Part shown: positions 3,533-14,997 of the stretch, one piece after another
Layout: each line of letters opens with the position of its first letter
Numbering within the stretch: the stretch's first letter is position 1
From: Clostridia bacterium
GTDB lineage: Bacteria > Bacillota > Clostridia > Oscillospirales > CAG-272
Direction of reading: 5' to 3'
Assembly: GCA_017453205.1 (NCBI GenBank)
Contig: JAFTKO010000005.1
Location: 1 to 40,112 of the forward strand
DNA: 40,112 bases
Notes under the pieces: generated by a model
Told to the model about the DNA's origin: nothing
Database searches by the model: none
Seen by the model: the letters and a program-made list of their open reading frames with translations, nothing else
Program-made: the position numbers and the translations under genes

Positions 3533-4921
3533 ATGAGCATCCAAAACAAACTGGCACAGTATCGGGAATGGAAAAGCGGTGTCAAGCACTGCACGTTCAA
3601 TCCCGAGGGACCCGGCGTGGTGCGCATCCATCTCATCCCGCCAAAATTCCGATGGTTTGGCAACGCACCGTACATCGTCATCCTCAACGGCTATTATCTT
3701 TTGCCGTTGGGGTATTCATGGGCGGTCATGCTTTCGTTCTTTATGAGCGAGGTGAACCGTTTTGACGGCTGTCCCATCGGTGACAAGGACGCAGACAGTA
3801 TCGTGGAGAACACCCTCAAACATACGCGTCGCGTCTATCCGTCGACAAGCTGCGAAACGCTTCGCGAGGATTTGGAAACCATGCTCGGCGTCCTGTTTGC
3901 CGTGGCAAAGGGCGAGGATCCCAATGCCGAGATCGAGCGCCTTTCGATCCGCGCCTATGCGCGCAACATGACGGCGCCGCATCGTGTGGATTTGATGGTC
4001 AGCGCCATGACCGACGCGCACGGTACATGGCAGTGCAACCAAAAATGCCTGTTTTGCTACGCGGCAGGGCAGAGCTACGCCAAAACGCGCGAGTTGACCA
4101 CGCGGGAGTGGAAAGAAGCGATCGACCGTTTGCGCGACGCGGGGGTTCCGATGCTGACCTTTACGGGCGGTGAGCCGACCCTGCGCGCCGACCTTGCCGA
4201 ACTAATCGGTTACAGCAAATGGTTCGTCACACGCCTCAATACCAACGGTGTCGCTTTGACGCCCACACTGGTTGAGGAACTGAAGCAAGCCAGCCTTGAC
4301 AGCGTACAGATCACGCTTTACGCGGCGGATGAGACGATCCACAACGAGCTTGTGGGCGGCAATCACTTTGCCGACACGCTCAAAGGCATTCAAAACGCCG
4401 TGCGCGCGGGGCTGGATGTCAGCGTCAACACCCCGCTTTGCAAAAAGAACGCCGATTACCTCGCAACGCTGAAGCTGCTGAACGGGCTTGGCGTGCGCTT
4501 TGTAACCGTCAGCGGCTTGATCTGCACGGGCATGGCGGGGGTCAACCACGCGCAATACGACCTTTGCGAGGACGAGCTGGTTGCGATCTTGCGCAACGCC
4601 AAGCGTTTTTGCGGAGAACACGGCATGGAGATCGACTTTACTTCACCCGGACTTGTCGCCAAGGAAAAGCTGGAGGAGCTTTCCCTCAATGTTCCCTCCT
4701 GCGGGGCGGCGCTTTCCAACATGGCAATCGCGCCCGACGGTACCGTGGTGCCATGCCAAAGCTGGCTGACTGCCGACGCGGGGCTTGGCAACATTCTTAC
4801 CGATCCCTTTGAGAAGATTTGGAAGCACAAAAACTGCGTCACGCTCCGCAAAATGAGCGATGCGGAGGCGCTTTCCTGTCCTTTTCGCAAGGGGCAAAAG
4901 GAGGTACACCATGGCTCGTAA
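3533..4921 (+). CDS. Radical SAM protein with SPASM-like C-terminus, candidate peptide maturase
   Basis: The 462-aa protein has the radical SAM cluster motif CX3CX2C (Cys168, Cys172, Cys175) in a WQCNQKCLFCYAAG context, and the SAM-binding TGGEP motif at 211-215. The C-terminal part carries Cys390, Cys408, Cys435 and Cys449 around a PDGTVVPCQSW motif, as in SPASM/twitch enzymes that hold auxiliary FeS clusters and often modify peptides. The first 160 residues are an unrecognised domain, partly helical, which could serve as a substrate-recognition module; that is inference. The start is ATG at 3533, with AAAGGAG 8 nt upstream. The gene overlaps the next by 11 nt, and the next gene's AGGAGGT lies inside it, so the two are translationally coupled. 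The alternating Cys-Ala tail of the neighbour is the obvious candidate substrate. The exact reaction is unknown. Confidence 0.85.
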   Translation: MSIQNKLAQYREWKSGVKHCTFNPEGPGVVRIHLIPPKFRWFGNAPYIVILNGYYLLPLGYSWAVMLSFFMSEVNRFDGCPIGDKDADSIVENTLKHTRRVYPSTSCETLREDLETMLGVLFAVAKGEDPNAEIERLSIRAYARNMTAPHRVDLMVSAMTDAHGTWQCNQKCLFCYAAGQSYAKTRELTTREWKEAIDRLRDAGVPMLTFTGGEPTLRADLAELIGYSKWFVTRLNTNGVALTPTLVEELKQASLDSVQITLYAADETIHNELVGGNHFADTLKGIQNAVRAGLDVSVNTPLCKKNADYLATLKLLNGLGVRFVTVSGLICTGMAGVNHAQYDLCEDELVAILRNAKRFCGEHGMEIDFTSPGLVAKEKLEELSLNVPSCGAALSNMAIAPDGTVVPCQSWLTADAGLGNILTDPFEKIWKHKNCVTLRKMSDAEALSCPFRKGQKEVHHGS

Positions 4922-5972
4922 AAAAGTTTATGAGGATCCTTATTCTGAGGCGACGATCAAAAAGAAGCGCCGTTTTCCCGTGCTTAATTCGATGCTTTTG
5001 GGGCTGTTGGTCATTTTGCAGATCTGCTTGATCCTGCTTGCCGTTTTTGGCGAGGAGTCCGAGCCGCAGGACGTGATCAAGGAATATGAGATCACGGTCG
5101 AGCCGTGCGAGAACGGCACACTGGATATTACGTATTCGTTTGTGTGGCAAGCCTTGGACACGTCGGAGGACTTGACGTGGGTCGAGATCGGCATGGCGAA
5201 TGAGCATTTTGTTGCAAAAACGGTCTCGAATACGATCAGCGCGGTCGAAAAATACACGGACGGCGACTATGTGTCTTTGCAGATCGACTTCAAACGCGCT
5301 TACCAAGGCGGCGAAACATTGGAGTTTTCCTTTACGGTCAACCAAAGTGCCATGCTTTGCAAGGATGGGGACGGTTATTTTTATGAGTTTGTCCCGGGAT
5401 GGTTCAATGCCACACCTGTGGAGCACTATACTTTTCGTTGGAAGGATGCCGACGGCTTGATCACCTCCAACGCCCAAAGGGAAAAAGGCGGCTATCTGAT
5501 TTGGGAGGGTGTGATGGATTGCGGTACGTATGTGCTGATGAATGTCGGCTACAATGCTGCGGCATTTGACGGTGCCGCCACCGTGTCGTATACCCCCTTT
5601 GATGGCAGCGGCGTGACCGACGTGCTTGCCGATGAGCGTATGGCGGGTGGAGTATTTTGCGTTATCCTCGCGCTTGTGCTCGTCATTCCCGAGGTCTACA
5701 TCGTGGACAGCTTTGTTTCCTATGACCGCGGCAGAGGCTTTCTCCGCGGCTACGGCTACCACATCCACACCTACGGACATGTCAATCCGCATTATCGCAA
5801 AGAACAGCAAAAACGCTCCGGAGGCGCGGGGCGCGGAGGCTTTTCGGGCGGCGGGTGCGCCTGTGCGTGTGCTTGTGCCTGTGCCGGCGGCGGTCGCGCG
5901 GGGTGCAGTCAAAAGGATACCTATCAAAAAAGCTCCGTGCAGAAAAGTACAGAGCCCGAGAGAGAACCGTAA
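4911..5972 (+). CDS. Two-span membrane protein with Cys-Ala repeat tail, candidate radical SAM substrate
   Basis: The start chosen is ATG at 4911, with AGGAGGT 6 nt upstream; it gives 353 aa. A basic N-terminus precedes membrane segment 1 (about residues 24-46). A beta-rich, probably extracellular domain follows (about 50-243), then membrane segment 2 (about 245-268). A cytoplasmic tail rich in Gly, Arg and aromatic residues ends in CACACACACA (316-325), GGGRAG, Cys332 and SQKD. The Cys and Ala codons vary synonymously (TGC/TGT; GCC/GCG/GCT), so the repeat is not a simple DNA slippage product. The external domain loosely resembles DUF2207-like proteins, from memory and unverified. Coupling to the upstream radical SAM gene suggests the tail is modified, for example by thioether or other Cys crosslinks; this is inference. 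Metal binding by the unmodified cysteines is the main alternative. Confidence 0.85.
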   Translation: MARKKVYEDPYSEATIKKKRRFPVLNSMLLGLLVILQICLILLAVFGEESEPQDVIKEYEITVEPCENGTLDITYSFVWQALDTSEDLTWVEIGMANEHFVAKTVSNTISAVEKYTDGDYVSLQIDFKRAYQGGETLEFSFTVNQSAMLCKDGDGYFYEFVPGWFNATPVEHYTFRWKDADGLITSNAQREKGGYLIWEGVMDCGTYVLMNVGYNAAAFDGAATVSYTPFDGSGVTDVLADERMAGGVFCVILALVLVIPEVYIVDSFVSYDRGRGFLRGYGYHIHTYGHVNPHYRKEQQKRSGGAGRGGFSGGGCACACACACAGGGRAGCSQKDTYQKSSVQKSTEPEREP

Positions 5973-5974
5973 AT

Positions 5975-6018
5975 ATGATGATTGGGAAGCTTCTTTTCGG
6001 AAGCTTCCCAATCATCAT
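5975..6018. terminator. Bidirectional terminator between convergent genes
   Basis: A perfect 19-bp inverted repeat (arms 5975-5993 and 6000-6018) surrounds the loop TTTTCG. It lies between the stop codons of the Cys-Ala tail protein (+) and the phosphate cotransporter (-), 2 and 4 nt away. There is no long T-run on either side, so efficiency is uncertain. Confidence 0.7.
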
Positions 6019-6022
6019 ATGA

Positions 6023-8033: not shown

Positions 8034-8050
8034 TTGAGAACCATTCTCAA
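8034..8050. promoter_or_regulatory. Fur-box-like operator
   Basis: TTGAGAA-CCA-TTCTCAA is a perfect 7-3-7 dyad abutting the -10 box and covering the probable transcription start. It resembles Fur-superfamily boxes (TGAGAATnATTCTCA type). It suggests metal- or peroxide-dependent autoregulation by the adjacent gene. Confidence 0.7.
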
Positions 8051-8069
8051 TTTACAAAAAGGACGTTTT

Positions 8070-8510
8070 ATGAAGAAGAAAAATTACAGGAGCGACGGGA
8101 GAGCGGCTTTGGTTGAGTTCCTTTCCCAAAATCCCGACTGCCAATTCACCACCGAGGAGCTTTGTTTGGCGGTCAACGGGAGCGAGACCGAGGGGCGGAG
8201 CAGTGTCTACCGCCATTTGACACAGCTTTGCGAGGACGAGACCGTGCGAAAGTTCCGCAATGAGGCACGCAAATGCGCGGTCTATCAATATATCGGAAAA
8301 AATTGTGACTGCGGCAACCACTTTCACGAAAAGTGTACGCGATGCGGGCGCCTGCGTCACCTTGATTGCAGTGACTCGGCGGCGTTTGCCGAGCATTTGC
8401 TGTTGGTGCACGGCTTTGCGGTTGATCGCGGACAGTCGATCCTGTACGGGCTTTGCGCCGATTGCCGCGCCGCCGAGAAGGGAGGTGCGCGTGATGGAGC
8501 ACTTTCTTGA
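8070..8510 (+). CDS. Fur-family transcriptional regulator
   Basis: The 146-aa protein has an N-terminal winged helix (about residues 10-75; SSVYRHLTQLCED is the recognition-helix region). A metal-binding half follows, with HFHEKCTRCGRL and a second Cys pair, CADC, near the end, giving the two structural zinc CXXC knuckles. Fur, Zur, PerR and Mur cannot be separated by eye. ATG at 8070 is chosen over an in-frame TTG at 8034, because that one lies inside the operator. The gene overlaps the next by 17 nt. Regulation of the downstream permease and of itself through the dyad at 8034 is the likely role; export of the sensed metal would make physiological sense. Confidence 0.9.
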   Translation: MKKKNYRSDGRAALVEFLSQNPDCQFTTEELCLAVNGSETEGRSSVYRHLTQLCEDETVRKFRNEARKCAVYQYIGKNCDCGNHFHEKCTRCGRLRHLDCSDSAAFAEHLLLVHGFAVDRGQSILYGLCADCRAAEKGGARDGALS

Positions 8511-9357
8511 GATCCTTTCCCACACACTGCTCGATACGTTCAAGCTGGTACCGTTTCTGTTTTTGACCTATCTGCTGATGGAATTTCTCGAGCACAAATC
8601 GGGTAACGCCGCCGAGAATTTGTTGCGGCGTTCGGGCAAGGTCGGTCCGCTTTTGGGCGGCTTGCTGGGTGTGGTTCCGCAGTGCGGCTTTTCCGCTGCC
8701 GCGTCGGGGCTTTACAGCGGACGCGTCATCACCGCAGGGACGCTGTTGGCGGTCTTTCTCTCCACCTCGGATGAGATGCTCCCCATCATGATCTCCCACG
8801 GCGCCCCCGCAGGCGAGGTGTTCAAGATCCTTGGTATCAAGCTGGCGGTTGCCGTGGCGGTCGGATTTTTGGTGGACGCTGTCGCGCGGCTTTATCACCG
8901 AAAGTGGGTTGCAGAGGCGCAGGAGCCGCAGATCGAAGCTTTTTGCGAGCGTGAGCATTGCGACTGTCACGACCATTTTGCGCTGTCGGCGCTCAAGCAT
9001 ACGCTGTCGGTCACGTTGTTCATCCTCATCGTCACTTTTGCGCTCAATTTGATAATCCACGGGGTAGGGGAGGACAAGCTTGCGGAATTTGTTCTCGACC
9101 GTCCCGTGATCGGCAACGTGTTGGCTGCGCTTGTGGGACTGATCCCCAACTGCGCCTCGTCGGTGGTGCTGACCGAGCTTTATCTCGGCGGCATTCTTTC
9201 TCTCGGCTGTGTGCTATCGGGATTGTTGGTCAACGCGGGCATCGGTATTGCCATTCTGTTTCGTAACAATCGCCCCGTGCGCGATTCATTCCGCATCGTC
9301 GGCATTTTGTGGCTTGTCGGTGCCTTGACGGGTATTTTGATCGATTTGATATTTTAG
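8494..9357 (+). CDS. Putative heavy-metal or arsenic exporter, ArsP_2-like permease
   Basis: The 287-aa integral membrane protein has two related halves, each with a proline- and cysteine-bearing motif in a membrane segment: GVVPQCGFSAAASGLY and GLIPNCASSVVLTELY. This matches the family annotated as putative 10-TM heavy-metal exporter or putative manganese transporter (PF11449). The loop between the halves is rich in metal ligands (CEREHCDCHDHF). ATG at 8494 is preceded by GGAGGT; the gene starts 17 nt before the regulator gene ends, so translation is probably coupled. The substrate is unknown. The Fur-family partner points to a divalent metal rather than arsenite. Confidence 0.8.
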   Translation: MEHFLEILSHTLLDTFKLVPFLFLTYLLMEFLEHKSGNAAENLLRRSGKVGPLLGGLLGVVPQCGFSAAASGLYSGRVITAGTLLAVFLSTSDEMLPIMISHGAPAGEVFKILGIKLAVAVAVGFLVDAVARLYHRKWVAEAQEPQIEAFCEREHCDCHDHFALSALKHTLSVTLFILIVTFALNLIIHGVGEDKLAEFVLDRPVIGNVLAALVGLIPNCASSVVLTELYLGGILSLGCVLSGLLVNAGIGIAILFRNNRPVRDSFRIVGILWLVGALTGILIDLIF

Positions 9358-13100: not shown

Positions 13101-13688
13101 TTACTTTGTCTCATCGGGCTCGGAGAGATTTTCGACCAAGAGGTAATCGTCCTCGGCGTCAAACTCGCTGTCGGCGGGACGCCAAGCTTGACCGAAATTC
13201 GTCTCGCGGAAGAGCGCGGCAAGACCTGTGATCTGCTTCAGACGCAGGATCTCGTCTTTGTCCATGCCGAGGTGTTTGGAGATCCAAGCGTCACTGCGGC
13301 CGATGTCGTGCAGATCGCGGATGATGTTGCTCATCAGATCAACGTCATGCGAGCCGCGGGCACGGTTGTGACGGATGGTGCTTGCCATACGCCCCGAGAG
13401 CGGCTTGTCGATCACCGAGACGGGGAGCATCCCGCCCTCGCGCTCATAGATGTCGGGATAATCGCGCATGACGCGGTAGCGGTGAAAGCCGTCTACGATG
13501 ATGTAGCGGTCGGCATCCTTGTCGTGGTAGCAAACGATGGGCATGGTGTAGCCGTCCTCGCGGATGCTGTCATACAGCAGCTTGATTTCGGGCGGTGCCA
13601 TGACGTTCGGGTTGTAGTCGTTGGGCACGATCTTTTCAATCGGTACGGCAATGACGCTGTAAACGGGACTTTTGATTTTATTCTTCAT
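13101..13688 (-). CDS. ParB-like N-terminal domain protein (IbrB-like)
   Basis: The 195-aa protein has a ParB/sulfiredoxin-type domain: PIEKIVPNDYNPN at the start, the VDGFHRYRV motif near residues 68-76 and RHNRARGSH near residues 108-116. A helix-turn-helix-like stretch (about 128-155) follows. This is the architecture of IbrB, which is encoded with IbrA in enterobacteria and needed there for expression of immunoglobulin-binding proteins; the biochemical role is unknown. ATG at 13686-13688 has GGAG upstream. It overlaps the preceding PAPS-reductase-like gene by 11 nt, so the two are co-translated. It is not a chromosome-partition ParB: there is no ParA neighbour and the protein is short. 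Confidence 0.85.
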   Translation of the reverse strand: MKNKIKSPVYSVIAVPIEKIVPNDYNPNVMAPPEIKLLYDSIREDGYTMPIVCYHDKDADRYIIVDGFHRYRVMRDYPDIYEREGGMLPVSVIDKPLSGRMASTIRHNRARGSHDVDLMSNIIRDLHDIGRSDAWISKHLGMDKDEILRLKQITGLAALFRETNFGQAWRPADSEFDAEDDYLLVENLSEPDETK

Positions 13689-14997
13689 AGATCATTTCTC
13701 CGTATTGTTCTTTGATCAAATTGATGCGGCGCTGTTCCTCGCGCGTCAGCCCAAAGCCCATAAAGCGGCAGAGGTGGTCGTTTTTGAGGATGCAGTAGCA
13801 CATACGCTTCCAGCTGGGAATGTCCTTTGTGGAGCGGATGTCATCGGTGTGGTCGGGGACCTTGTCAAGGAAGATGACGCGCGGCTTTTTGCTCAGTGTG
13901 TAGTTGGAGACGCCGTTGAGGGCAATGCGGTAGCCTCTTTCGCGCAGCTCCGCAATGGTCTCCTCGGAGAGCCCGCCGCCGATCTTGTGCCAAAACTCGA
14001 TGGATGTGTTAAATTTTTTGATGTAATTGTTACGCAGACGATGGGGGAGGGTGTCAAGCAGAAACCGCGTGTAGCTTTCCCACGTATGTCCCTCGGGCAG
14101 AGTGATGTTGCGGTAGCCCATGGCTTTGGTTCTGCCGTAGATCGCCGCAAAGTTAACGCCGCGCACGCGCCCGACCAGCTTGGTCCAGATCTGCGGGTCG
14201 ATGACACGGTACAGGTTCAAGCTGTCCTTGGAGTACTCGTTAAAGGGCGATGCCACGCGCATTTGGTCGACCGAAAGACCGGCTTTGTAGTAGAGGTCGT
14301 AGAGCTTGTTGTAATCGTAACCGAATTTGTAGTTTGCTACCCAAACGTCGTACACGCTCCAGTCGTACATGGGGGAGGCGCACCAAACATCCTTGAATTG
14401 CTTGGTGATCCAGCACTCGCCGTTGTAGCCGTAGCGTTTGTTCAAAAAGCCGCTGTAACGTTGGAGCGACTCATCGGCGCGCATGCCGAGCAGACACACG
14501 GTCTTTTTGTCTCCGTGTATCTCCTTGTAATGCCGCGCAAACTGCTTTGCCAAGTCCTCTTGGTGCATGCGGTAGTGATAGTGGTTGAAAGGATTTTTGA
14601 GATTGATGACGTAAGGGAAGTCGGGCATGGGGCGCACCCAAGCGTCCTCCTTGGTGTCGTCCCAAGGATACCAGAACATTTCGTAGTTGCTCAGCGCCGT
14701 GCGTGTTGCCATGGGGAGACAGACCCAATAGGGCTCGACCTCGTCCTTGAGTCGCTCGAATGTGCGTGTGACATACTCGGTGGTTACGGAGTACTGGGCT
14801 TCAAAGTCTTGATGGAACAAACCGATGACGCGGTGGGGGTAGTGTTCCTTTCGGTAGTCGAGCAACATATTGAGCAAAAGCCCGCTGTCCTTGCCGCCGC
14901 TGAAAGAAACATAAATGTTGTCAAATTCGCGAAACAGATATTCAAATCTCTGCTGTGTCGCTTCATAAACGTCGTAGGGTAGTAATTCTTTATTCAA
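13678..14997 (-). CDS. PAPS-reductase-like PP-loop protein with DUF3440 (IbrA-like)
   Basis: The 439-aa protein has the PP-loop ATP-pyrophosphatase motif SFSGGKDSG near residues 31-39, as in PAPS reductase, DndC and IbrA. A long C-terminal part follows, resembling DUF3440. The cysteine of the usual PAPS-reductase ECG-type tail is not seen, so classical sulfate reduction is unlikely. The start is TTG at 14995-14997; GAGGAAAGGA lies 13 nt upstream and the next Met is only at residue 44. It is the first gene of a two-gene operon with the ParB-like gene. Such pairs are scattered among bacteria and phages. A nucleotide or nucleic-acid modification role is inference from the PP-loop family. Confidence 0.88.
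   Translation of the reverse strand: MNKELLPYDVYEATQQRFEYLFREFDNIYVSFSGGKDSGLLLNMLLDYRKEHYPHRVIGLFHQDFEAQYSVTTEYVTRTFERLKDEVEPYWVCLPMATRTALSNYEMFWYPWDDTKEDAWVRPMPDFPYVINLKNPFNHYHYRMHQEDLAKQFARHYKEIHGDKKTVCLLGMRADESLQRYSGFLNKRYGYNGECWITKQFKDVWCASPMYDWSVYDVWVANYKFGYDYNKLYDLYYKAGLSVDQMRVASPFNEYSKDSLNLYRVIDPQIWTKLVGRVRGVNFAAIYGRTKAMGYRNITLPEGHTWESYTRFLLDTLPHRLRNNYIKKFNTSIEFWHKIGGGLSEETIAELRERGYRIALNGVSNYTLSKKPRVIFLDKVPDHTDDIRSTKDIPSWKRMCYCILKNDHLCRFMGFGLTREEQRRINLIKEQYGEMIYEE

Follow-up and report, generated by a model that had tools for sequence, protein, structure and literature searches.

A conserved radical SAM/SPASM enzyme and its neighboring membrane protein with a Cys-Ala tail: a likely membrane-resident relative of sactipeptide systems

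Introduction

The known work of peptide maturases of the radical S-adenosylmethionine (SAM)/SPASM type lies mainly with short peptides of the secreted or cofactor kind. The streptide maturase SuiB, for instance, links Lys to Trp through a carbon-carbon bond within a short peptide. PMC5491770 speaks of a lysine-tryptophan bond made by a SPASM enzyme. Here we report on a two-gene system found in the window, that is, the whole stretch of 40,112 nucleotides that was analyzed (positions 1 to 40,112 of contig JAFTKO010000005.1, assembly GCA_017453205.1, from a Clostridia bacterium of CAG-272 within the Oscillospirales), in which the gene of a radical SAM/SPASM enzyme adjoins that of a predicted membrane protein with a Cys-Ala repeat in its tail. 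The pairing and the tail are real and not a matter of chance. By analogy, the system appears to work like a sactipeptide maturase and its substrate. It is likely related to sactipeptide systems but resident in the membrane, with thioether crosslinks that would be formed in place on its Cys-Ala repeat.

The candidate substrate sets this system apart from SkfB and the other sactisynthases. It is a predicted membrane protein of 308 to 691 residues in the complete partners, longer than the short precursors of ribosomally synthesized and post-translationally modified peptide (RiPP) systems, and its cysteine stretch stands at the end or inside the protein. No protease or exporter family recurs beside the pair in three or more of the 32 loci found, and the enzyme scores far below the NCBIfam cut-off. 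Compared with SuiB, the tail in the window has no Trp. TIGR04133 (rSAM_w_lipo), presumably named for an association with a lipoprotein, is also a radical SAM/SPASM family, for which the window enzyme gives 84.1 bits vs a cut-off of 425.

The nearest published idea is that MNIO enzymes may modify the Cys-rich tails of TIGR04222 membrane proteins, and in the excerpted part of PMC12452194 Gly/Ser- and Cys-rich C-terminal tails of membrane proteins are proposed as in-place enzyme substrates. The likeness lies in the Cys-rich tail of a membrane protein as the proposed in-place substrate of a modifying enzyme; the differences are in the enzyme superfamily, in the mostly Actinomycetota distribution on the MNIO side, and in the location of the tail, which is the periplasm for MNIO/TIGR04222 and, by prediction, the cytoplasm here. 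Linkage is also looser there, with 490 of the 1372 genomes with TIGR04222 genes being without MNIO genes according to the same excerpt. None of six tail proteins matches TIGR04222 in NCBIfam, where five families were matched at an E-value of 0.1. A second likeness is to the DUF2207/LemA/TPM proteins: one of the six tail proteins matches DUF2207 (E-value 8.8e-6), and TPM and LemA genes stand in the operon of one divergent lineage, whereas the ordinary DUF2207 members of genomes G023 and G027 (our labels, with L numbers for loci) lack the Cys-Ala repeat. DUF2207-LemA pairs are mentioned in the excerpt of PMC12631010. No description of the enzyme-tail pair was found in the open-access literature searched.

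The gene pair and its linkage

The two genes of the window and the tail are located as follows.

3533..4921, + strand: radical SAM/SPASM enzyme, 462 residues, proposed tail modifier (reading frame)
4911..5972, + strand: predicted membrane protein with Cys-Ala tail, 353 residues, proposed substrate (reading frame, alignments, model)
5856..5909, + strand: CACACACACAGGGRAGCS tail, residues 316-333, proposed modification site (conservation, codon differences, disorder)

As first read from the DNA alone, both open reading frames (ORFs) stand at these positions and overlap by 11 nucleotides, with the membrane-protein ATG at 4911 inside the enzyme gene, so that the two proteins are probably made together. 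This ATG is preceded by AAAAGGAGG, and a longer membrane-protein ORF from 4860 reflects only an upstream in-frame start.

In the samples searched, all 32 distinct enzyme loci have a gene of the tail-protein family adjacent to the enzyme gene. The set comprises the window's own locus, ten others in the class, that of G116, four from named genomes, 13 from the phylum, and three from the genus, the samples overlapping in part; G116 and G492 were found via the partner and the other loci via the enzyme, and no two of the 32 enzymes are more than 86.4% identical. The repeat itself could be read in 28 loci. In the remaining four (G336, G373, G743, and G853) the contig stops within the partner gene, ahead of the tail. 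For G373, a matching tail, SCACACACAGGGRVGCSERGY, stands at the start of a loose contig, and for G336 another contig carries a further partner gene that has the tail.

Among 391 genomes of the class, the enzyme profile found 10 genomes (1e-60) and the partner profile 11 (1e-8), namely the same 10 and G492, whose contig starts inside a partial enzyme gene just upstream of the tail gene (Fisher p = 1.4e-21 by genome and 7e-15 by genus). The partner was present in two of 147 genomes of the order, the window's own and G116, with the enzyme again adjoining, while across 398 genomes of the phylum the enzyme profile retrieved the own genome and 13 divergent ones, all 13 with a partner-family gene adjacent. 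Four of 27 genus genomes have the enzyme, the own one included, and the three others carry the tail. A pattern scan with a single enzyme sequence over 84,980 named genomes gave four relatives (Clostridia bacteria of goat, sheep, and yak colon, and Candidatus Gemmiger faecavium), all with the tail protein directly downstream; 63 pattern matches in viral contigs included no relative, and plasmids gave no match at 1e-40.

In the reverse direction, a pattern of four Cys-Ala codon pairs was found in 14 of the 391 class genomes, 11 of them belonging to the tail-protein family, and no clear Cys-Ala tail without the enzyme was seen in these 391. The other three matches were rejected: the one in G160 lies in no ORF of 30 residues or more, the one in G229 in open frame just before the first start codon of a 491-residue ORF, and the one in G202 in a 73-residue ORF at a contig end, taken as spurious. 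In the order, the pattern occurs in three of 147 genomes, the window's own, G116, and G017. The G017 match (L008 559-1956) belongs to a Cys-rich but unrelated protein, which has repeats of the CGNWNG type as well as a CACACACA stretch, and this genome, in which the enzyme was not searched for, has no tail-protein match. In the samples searched, enzyme and tail are thus linked in both directions, as the original prediction expected; the opposite pattern, the same tail mostly without a linked radical SAM gene, was looked for and did not occur.

The enzyme gene precedes the tail gene in most loci. The order is reversed in L028 and in L084-L086, and in L028 a single enzyme is accompanied by two tail genes. 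Adjacency that is kept while the order flips argues for a functional link rather than a frozen operon. Pairwise identities of the enzymes and of the partners correlate at 0.92 over 23 pairs, which are not independent of one another.

Conservation of the tail

The tail of the window partner reads CACACACACAGGGRAGCSQK and is the most conserved part of the protein. The motif CACACACAGGGRAGCSxK is invariant in the first six of six partners, otherwise 33% to 51% identical to that of the window, and near-invariant in 14 partners at 25% to 51% identity, the Ala of the repeat being kept as strictly as the Cys. Synonymous codon variation had been taken early on as a sign of selection on the protein, and the count bears this out, with 648 synonymous vs 24 non-synonymous differences in 1092 codon pairs (pairs not independent) from 13 of the 14 tails, the one with Tyr for a Cys being left out. 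Tandem Repeats Finder reports a weak 6-nucleotide array in the window tail (85% matches, score 40), and the tail is predicted to be disordered, with a predicted local distance difference test score (pLDDT) below 50.

Divergent lineages have repeat forms of their own: one group shows GC[AHY]CVSCACACVSCACACACAGG[GR]GAGC, and the proteins of another end at the C-terminus with CACACACACASSGGCT. In three of the 13 divergent loci (L074, L075, and L078) the repeat is internal and a TPM domain follows downstream in the same gene; L078, the one tested, has an extra hydrophobic stretch between the two. The repeat is therefore not always the C-terminal end, and the idea of a C-terminal cap does not extend to these three loci. 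The genes with both repeat and TPM domain lie at L074 1364-3439, L075 873-2687, and L078 1443-3284.

Predicted structures of enzyme and partner

Within the enzyme gene, the following regions were recognized.

3578..3907, + strand: enzyme N-terminal region (model secondary structure; SuiB alignment from residue 20; RiPP recognition element (RRE) order bbb-aaa)
4034..4057, + strand: CX3CX2C radical SAM motif, C168, C172, and C175 (invariant in 23/23 aligned homologues)
4700..4879, + strand: reduced SPASM-type cysteine region, C390, C408, C435, and C449 (Pfam SPASM at residues 390-447)

In Pfam the window enzyme scores 89 bits for Radical_SAM against a cut-off of 29.5, and 36.3 bits for SPASM against one of 21.5, and so passes both. 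The original prediction had read a CX3CX2C motif and four C-terminal cysteines in a SPASM-like context. The motif is confirmed as C168-X3-C172-X2-C175 and the context by the Pfam match. Of the four C-terminal cysteines, C390, C408, and C449 are kept throughout the 23 aligned homologues and C435 varies. Most of CX2CX5CX3C is missing from the window's own clade: its other three cysteines are absent in the 12 rows of that clade, while the motif is present in the 11 divergent rows, bar one Cys in one row. Among the best 25 of 72 NCBIfam models, the scores of the window enzyme are 64.2 of 300 for SkfB, 60.2 of 625 for StsB, and 50.6 of 340 for PapB.

The model of the enzyme has a radical SAM barrel fold, and its best structural matches are SuiB, whose alignment covers model residues 20-458, and SkfB, which is also the best solved relative by sequence (E-value 1.1e-21 with the enzyme profile). 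In the N-terminal domain of the model, the order of the elements fits the RRE definition, given as bbb-aaa in the excerpted text of PMC12710340, with one extra strand. The enzyme is accordingly predicted, on the basis of its model, to carry an N-terminal peptide-recognition domain.

The partner is divided as follows.

4980..5048, + strand: predicted membrane helix 1, residues 24-46 (model; hydropathy 3.02; net charge +4 before, −5 after)
5061..5579, + strand: predicted extracytoplasmic beta domain, residues about 51-223
5622..5708, + strand: predicted membrane helix 2, residues 238-266 (model; hydropathy 2.65; net charge −2 before, +1 after)
5709..5855, + strand: juxtamembrane and Gly-rich linker, residues 267-315 (near-invariant Y271, in at least 90% of 14 rows)

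The partner model (pLDDT 76) shows the two helices as long and hydrophobic, and the protein looks like a resident membrane protein, as had been proposed; the beta domain is predicted outside and the tail inside, which places the repeat on the cytoplasmic side. The linker could possibly serve as a leader-like recognition stretch. No Pfam or NCBIfam family matches the window membrane protein over its cut-off, with DUF2207 (PF09972) reaching 12.4 of 24.4 bits. We also noticed a zinc-ribbon-like stretch with two CxxC pairs between helix 2 and the repeat in one genus (L030, L031, L056, and L057).

Gene neighborhoods

The wider neighborhood of the pair changes between lineages. Beyond the pair, gene families common to at least three of the 32 loci occur only inside individual divergent lineages, the flanks compared being of unequal length. 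One such lineage shares a long divergent gene together with a LemA gene, and another shares three genes; one further shared group corresponds to the tail gene read in its antisense frame. No protease or exporter family is common to at least three of the 32 loci, neighbors outside the window having mostly not been searched against families. As no other family is common to at least three loci across lineages, a protease or exporter is probably not a constant partner, in line with the early remark that neither is encoded nearby. The window neighbors are a 4-alpha-glucanotransferase gene upstream and a convergent Na/Pi cotransporter gene downstream.

In one divergent lineage TPM and LemA genes follow the pair (L076 6165-7619, L077 6568-7865, L079 6167-7470, and L080 6780-7936), and Pfam confirms TPM in L076, L079, and L080 (not L077) and LemA in L076, L077, and L079. 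Four of nine genomes tested have LemA; the window's own genome, which is 73% complete, is not among the four. The gene stands beside the pair only in the f155/f217 lineage. As a control, an ordinary DUF2207 protein was found in two of 98 relatives, G023 and G027, neither with a Cys-Ala tail: that of G027, whose gene neighbors a LemA gene, shows a Gly-rich but Cys-free tail at the same place, and that of G023 ends after the last helix with no Gly-rich tail. In a third lineage, two further genes of about 260 to 300 residues, secreted as judged by eye, come after the pair (L084 4695-6462, L085 4835-6623, and L086 1913-3626); in L084 one has only sub-cut-off Pfam matches and the other none.

A promoter scan upstream of the window enzyme gave nothing of note, with two promoter-like sites, both on the opposite strand, where 1.0 was expected. 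A long inverted repeat at 5975-6020, read by eye and missing from the terminator scan, lies between the convergent tail and cotransporter genes and is probably a two-way terminator. Elsewhere in the window, a FUR-family regulator gene overlaps an ORF with an ArsP_2 heavy-metal exporter match (8034-9357), and 13678-14997 encodes a protein with a PAPS reductase domain and DUF3440.

Proposed mechanism and alternative explanations

The best explanation, to which we give a probability of roughly 0.6, is a conserved two-gene system in which the SPASM-type enzyme crosslinks the cysteines of the Cys-Ala repeat on the predicted membrane protein of the neighboring gene, and the repeat stays in place. 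With overlapping genes, as seen in the window, the two proteins could be produced in a coupled manner, and the membrane protein would insert so that the beta domain lies outside and the tail inside. The N-terminal domain of the enzyme may then hold the linker after helix 2 or the conserved GGGRAGCS end, and the enzyme would use SAM to remove hydrogens from the tail, with the alanine alpha carbons as the probable sites. These carbons would be joined to cysteine sulfurs as sactionine-like thioethers, each with a loss of 2 Da, as suggested by the SkfB-like relatives and by the conservation of both Ala and Cys. The acceptor is placed at Ala because this residue is kept as strictly as Cys and would not be needed by a plain metal site. 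A resident envelope protein would thereby gain a compact crosslinked tail with a structural, redox, or metal-linked role, and the internal repeats, together with the missing constant protease or exporter, suggest that the tail stays on the protein. A more far-reaching version has about an even chance: a hitherto undescribed system of two genes, patchy in its distribution, through which a resident bacterial membrane protein acquires a covalently crosslinked Cys-Ala polymer on its cytoplasmic side, with several thioethers in a row, so that a RiPP-type enzyme serves permanent architecture and not a secreted peptide.

Several observations weigh against crosslinking in place. With Cys and Ala as immediate neighbors, the rings would be tight or many-way, whereas those of known sactipeptides are long-range, and L028 has a natural tail with Tyr replacing one Cys. 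The SPASM cysteine set of the window's clade is reduced and falls short of the full set for two auxiliary clusters, and the window enzyme reaches no NCBIfam cut-off among the best 25 of 72 models. Hydropathy marks the repeat itself as hydrophobic in some members, which makes its association with the membrane possible, and in L013 two ABC transporter genes, not common to at least three loci, come after the pair. On the side of the linkage, the three partners of the f114 lineage match the partner profile weakly (E-values 4e-9 to 4e-7), and many of the genomes carrying enzyme loci are incomplete. Two loci look damaged: the G373 enzyme gene is interrupted by a stop codon, and in G452 (L033 3307-5329) about 2 kb with only short ORFs on the strand of the tail gene separate the two parts of that gene.

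If the pairing were one of chance neighbors and the tail a slipped low-complexity repeat, a two-residue repeat is what one would expect to see, and three of the 14 class genomes with the repeat pattern do have it outside the tail-protein family; chance pairing and DNA slippage are nevertheless ruled out by the 32/32 linkage, the flipped gene orders, and the excess of synonymous codon differences. A classic RiPP, with the tail as a core that is cut off and exported, would account for the pairing of a Cys-rich peptide segment with a SPASM enzyme that has an RRE-like domain, and for the transporter genes of L013. We consider it very improbable, as no protease or exporter family recurs in at least three loci, the repeat is predicted to be cytoplasmic, and a TPM domain comes after it in L074, L075, and L078.

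The tail could also be an unmodified thiol cluster that binds a metal or an iron-sulfur cluster, with the enzyme either using it, for example as a source of electrons, or acting elsewhere. CXC runs can indeed bind soft metals, and the zinc-ribbon-like stretch stands before the tail in one genus. Metal sites, however, rarely require every spacer to be Ala or the GGGRAGCS end to be fixed, the lineages have no other candidate substrate gene in common, and the enzyme has a domain of substrate-recognition order, so that we regard a thiol cluster as unlikely. The enzyme might instead modify the strictly kept alanines, for example by epimerization, giving a tail of alternating L-Cys and D-Ala in a helix of alternating chirality, which we hold to be a minor possibility beside crosslinking.

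Conclusions

If crosslinking of the repeat in place is true, SPASM chemistry would be used for permanent parts of envelope proteins. The pair would then provide a first functional handle on the obscure DUF2207/TPM/LemA envelope proteins, and its tail a minimal repetitive substrate for studying how SPASM enzymes choose their sites.
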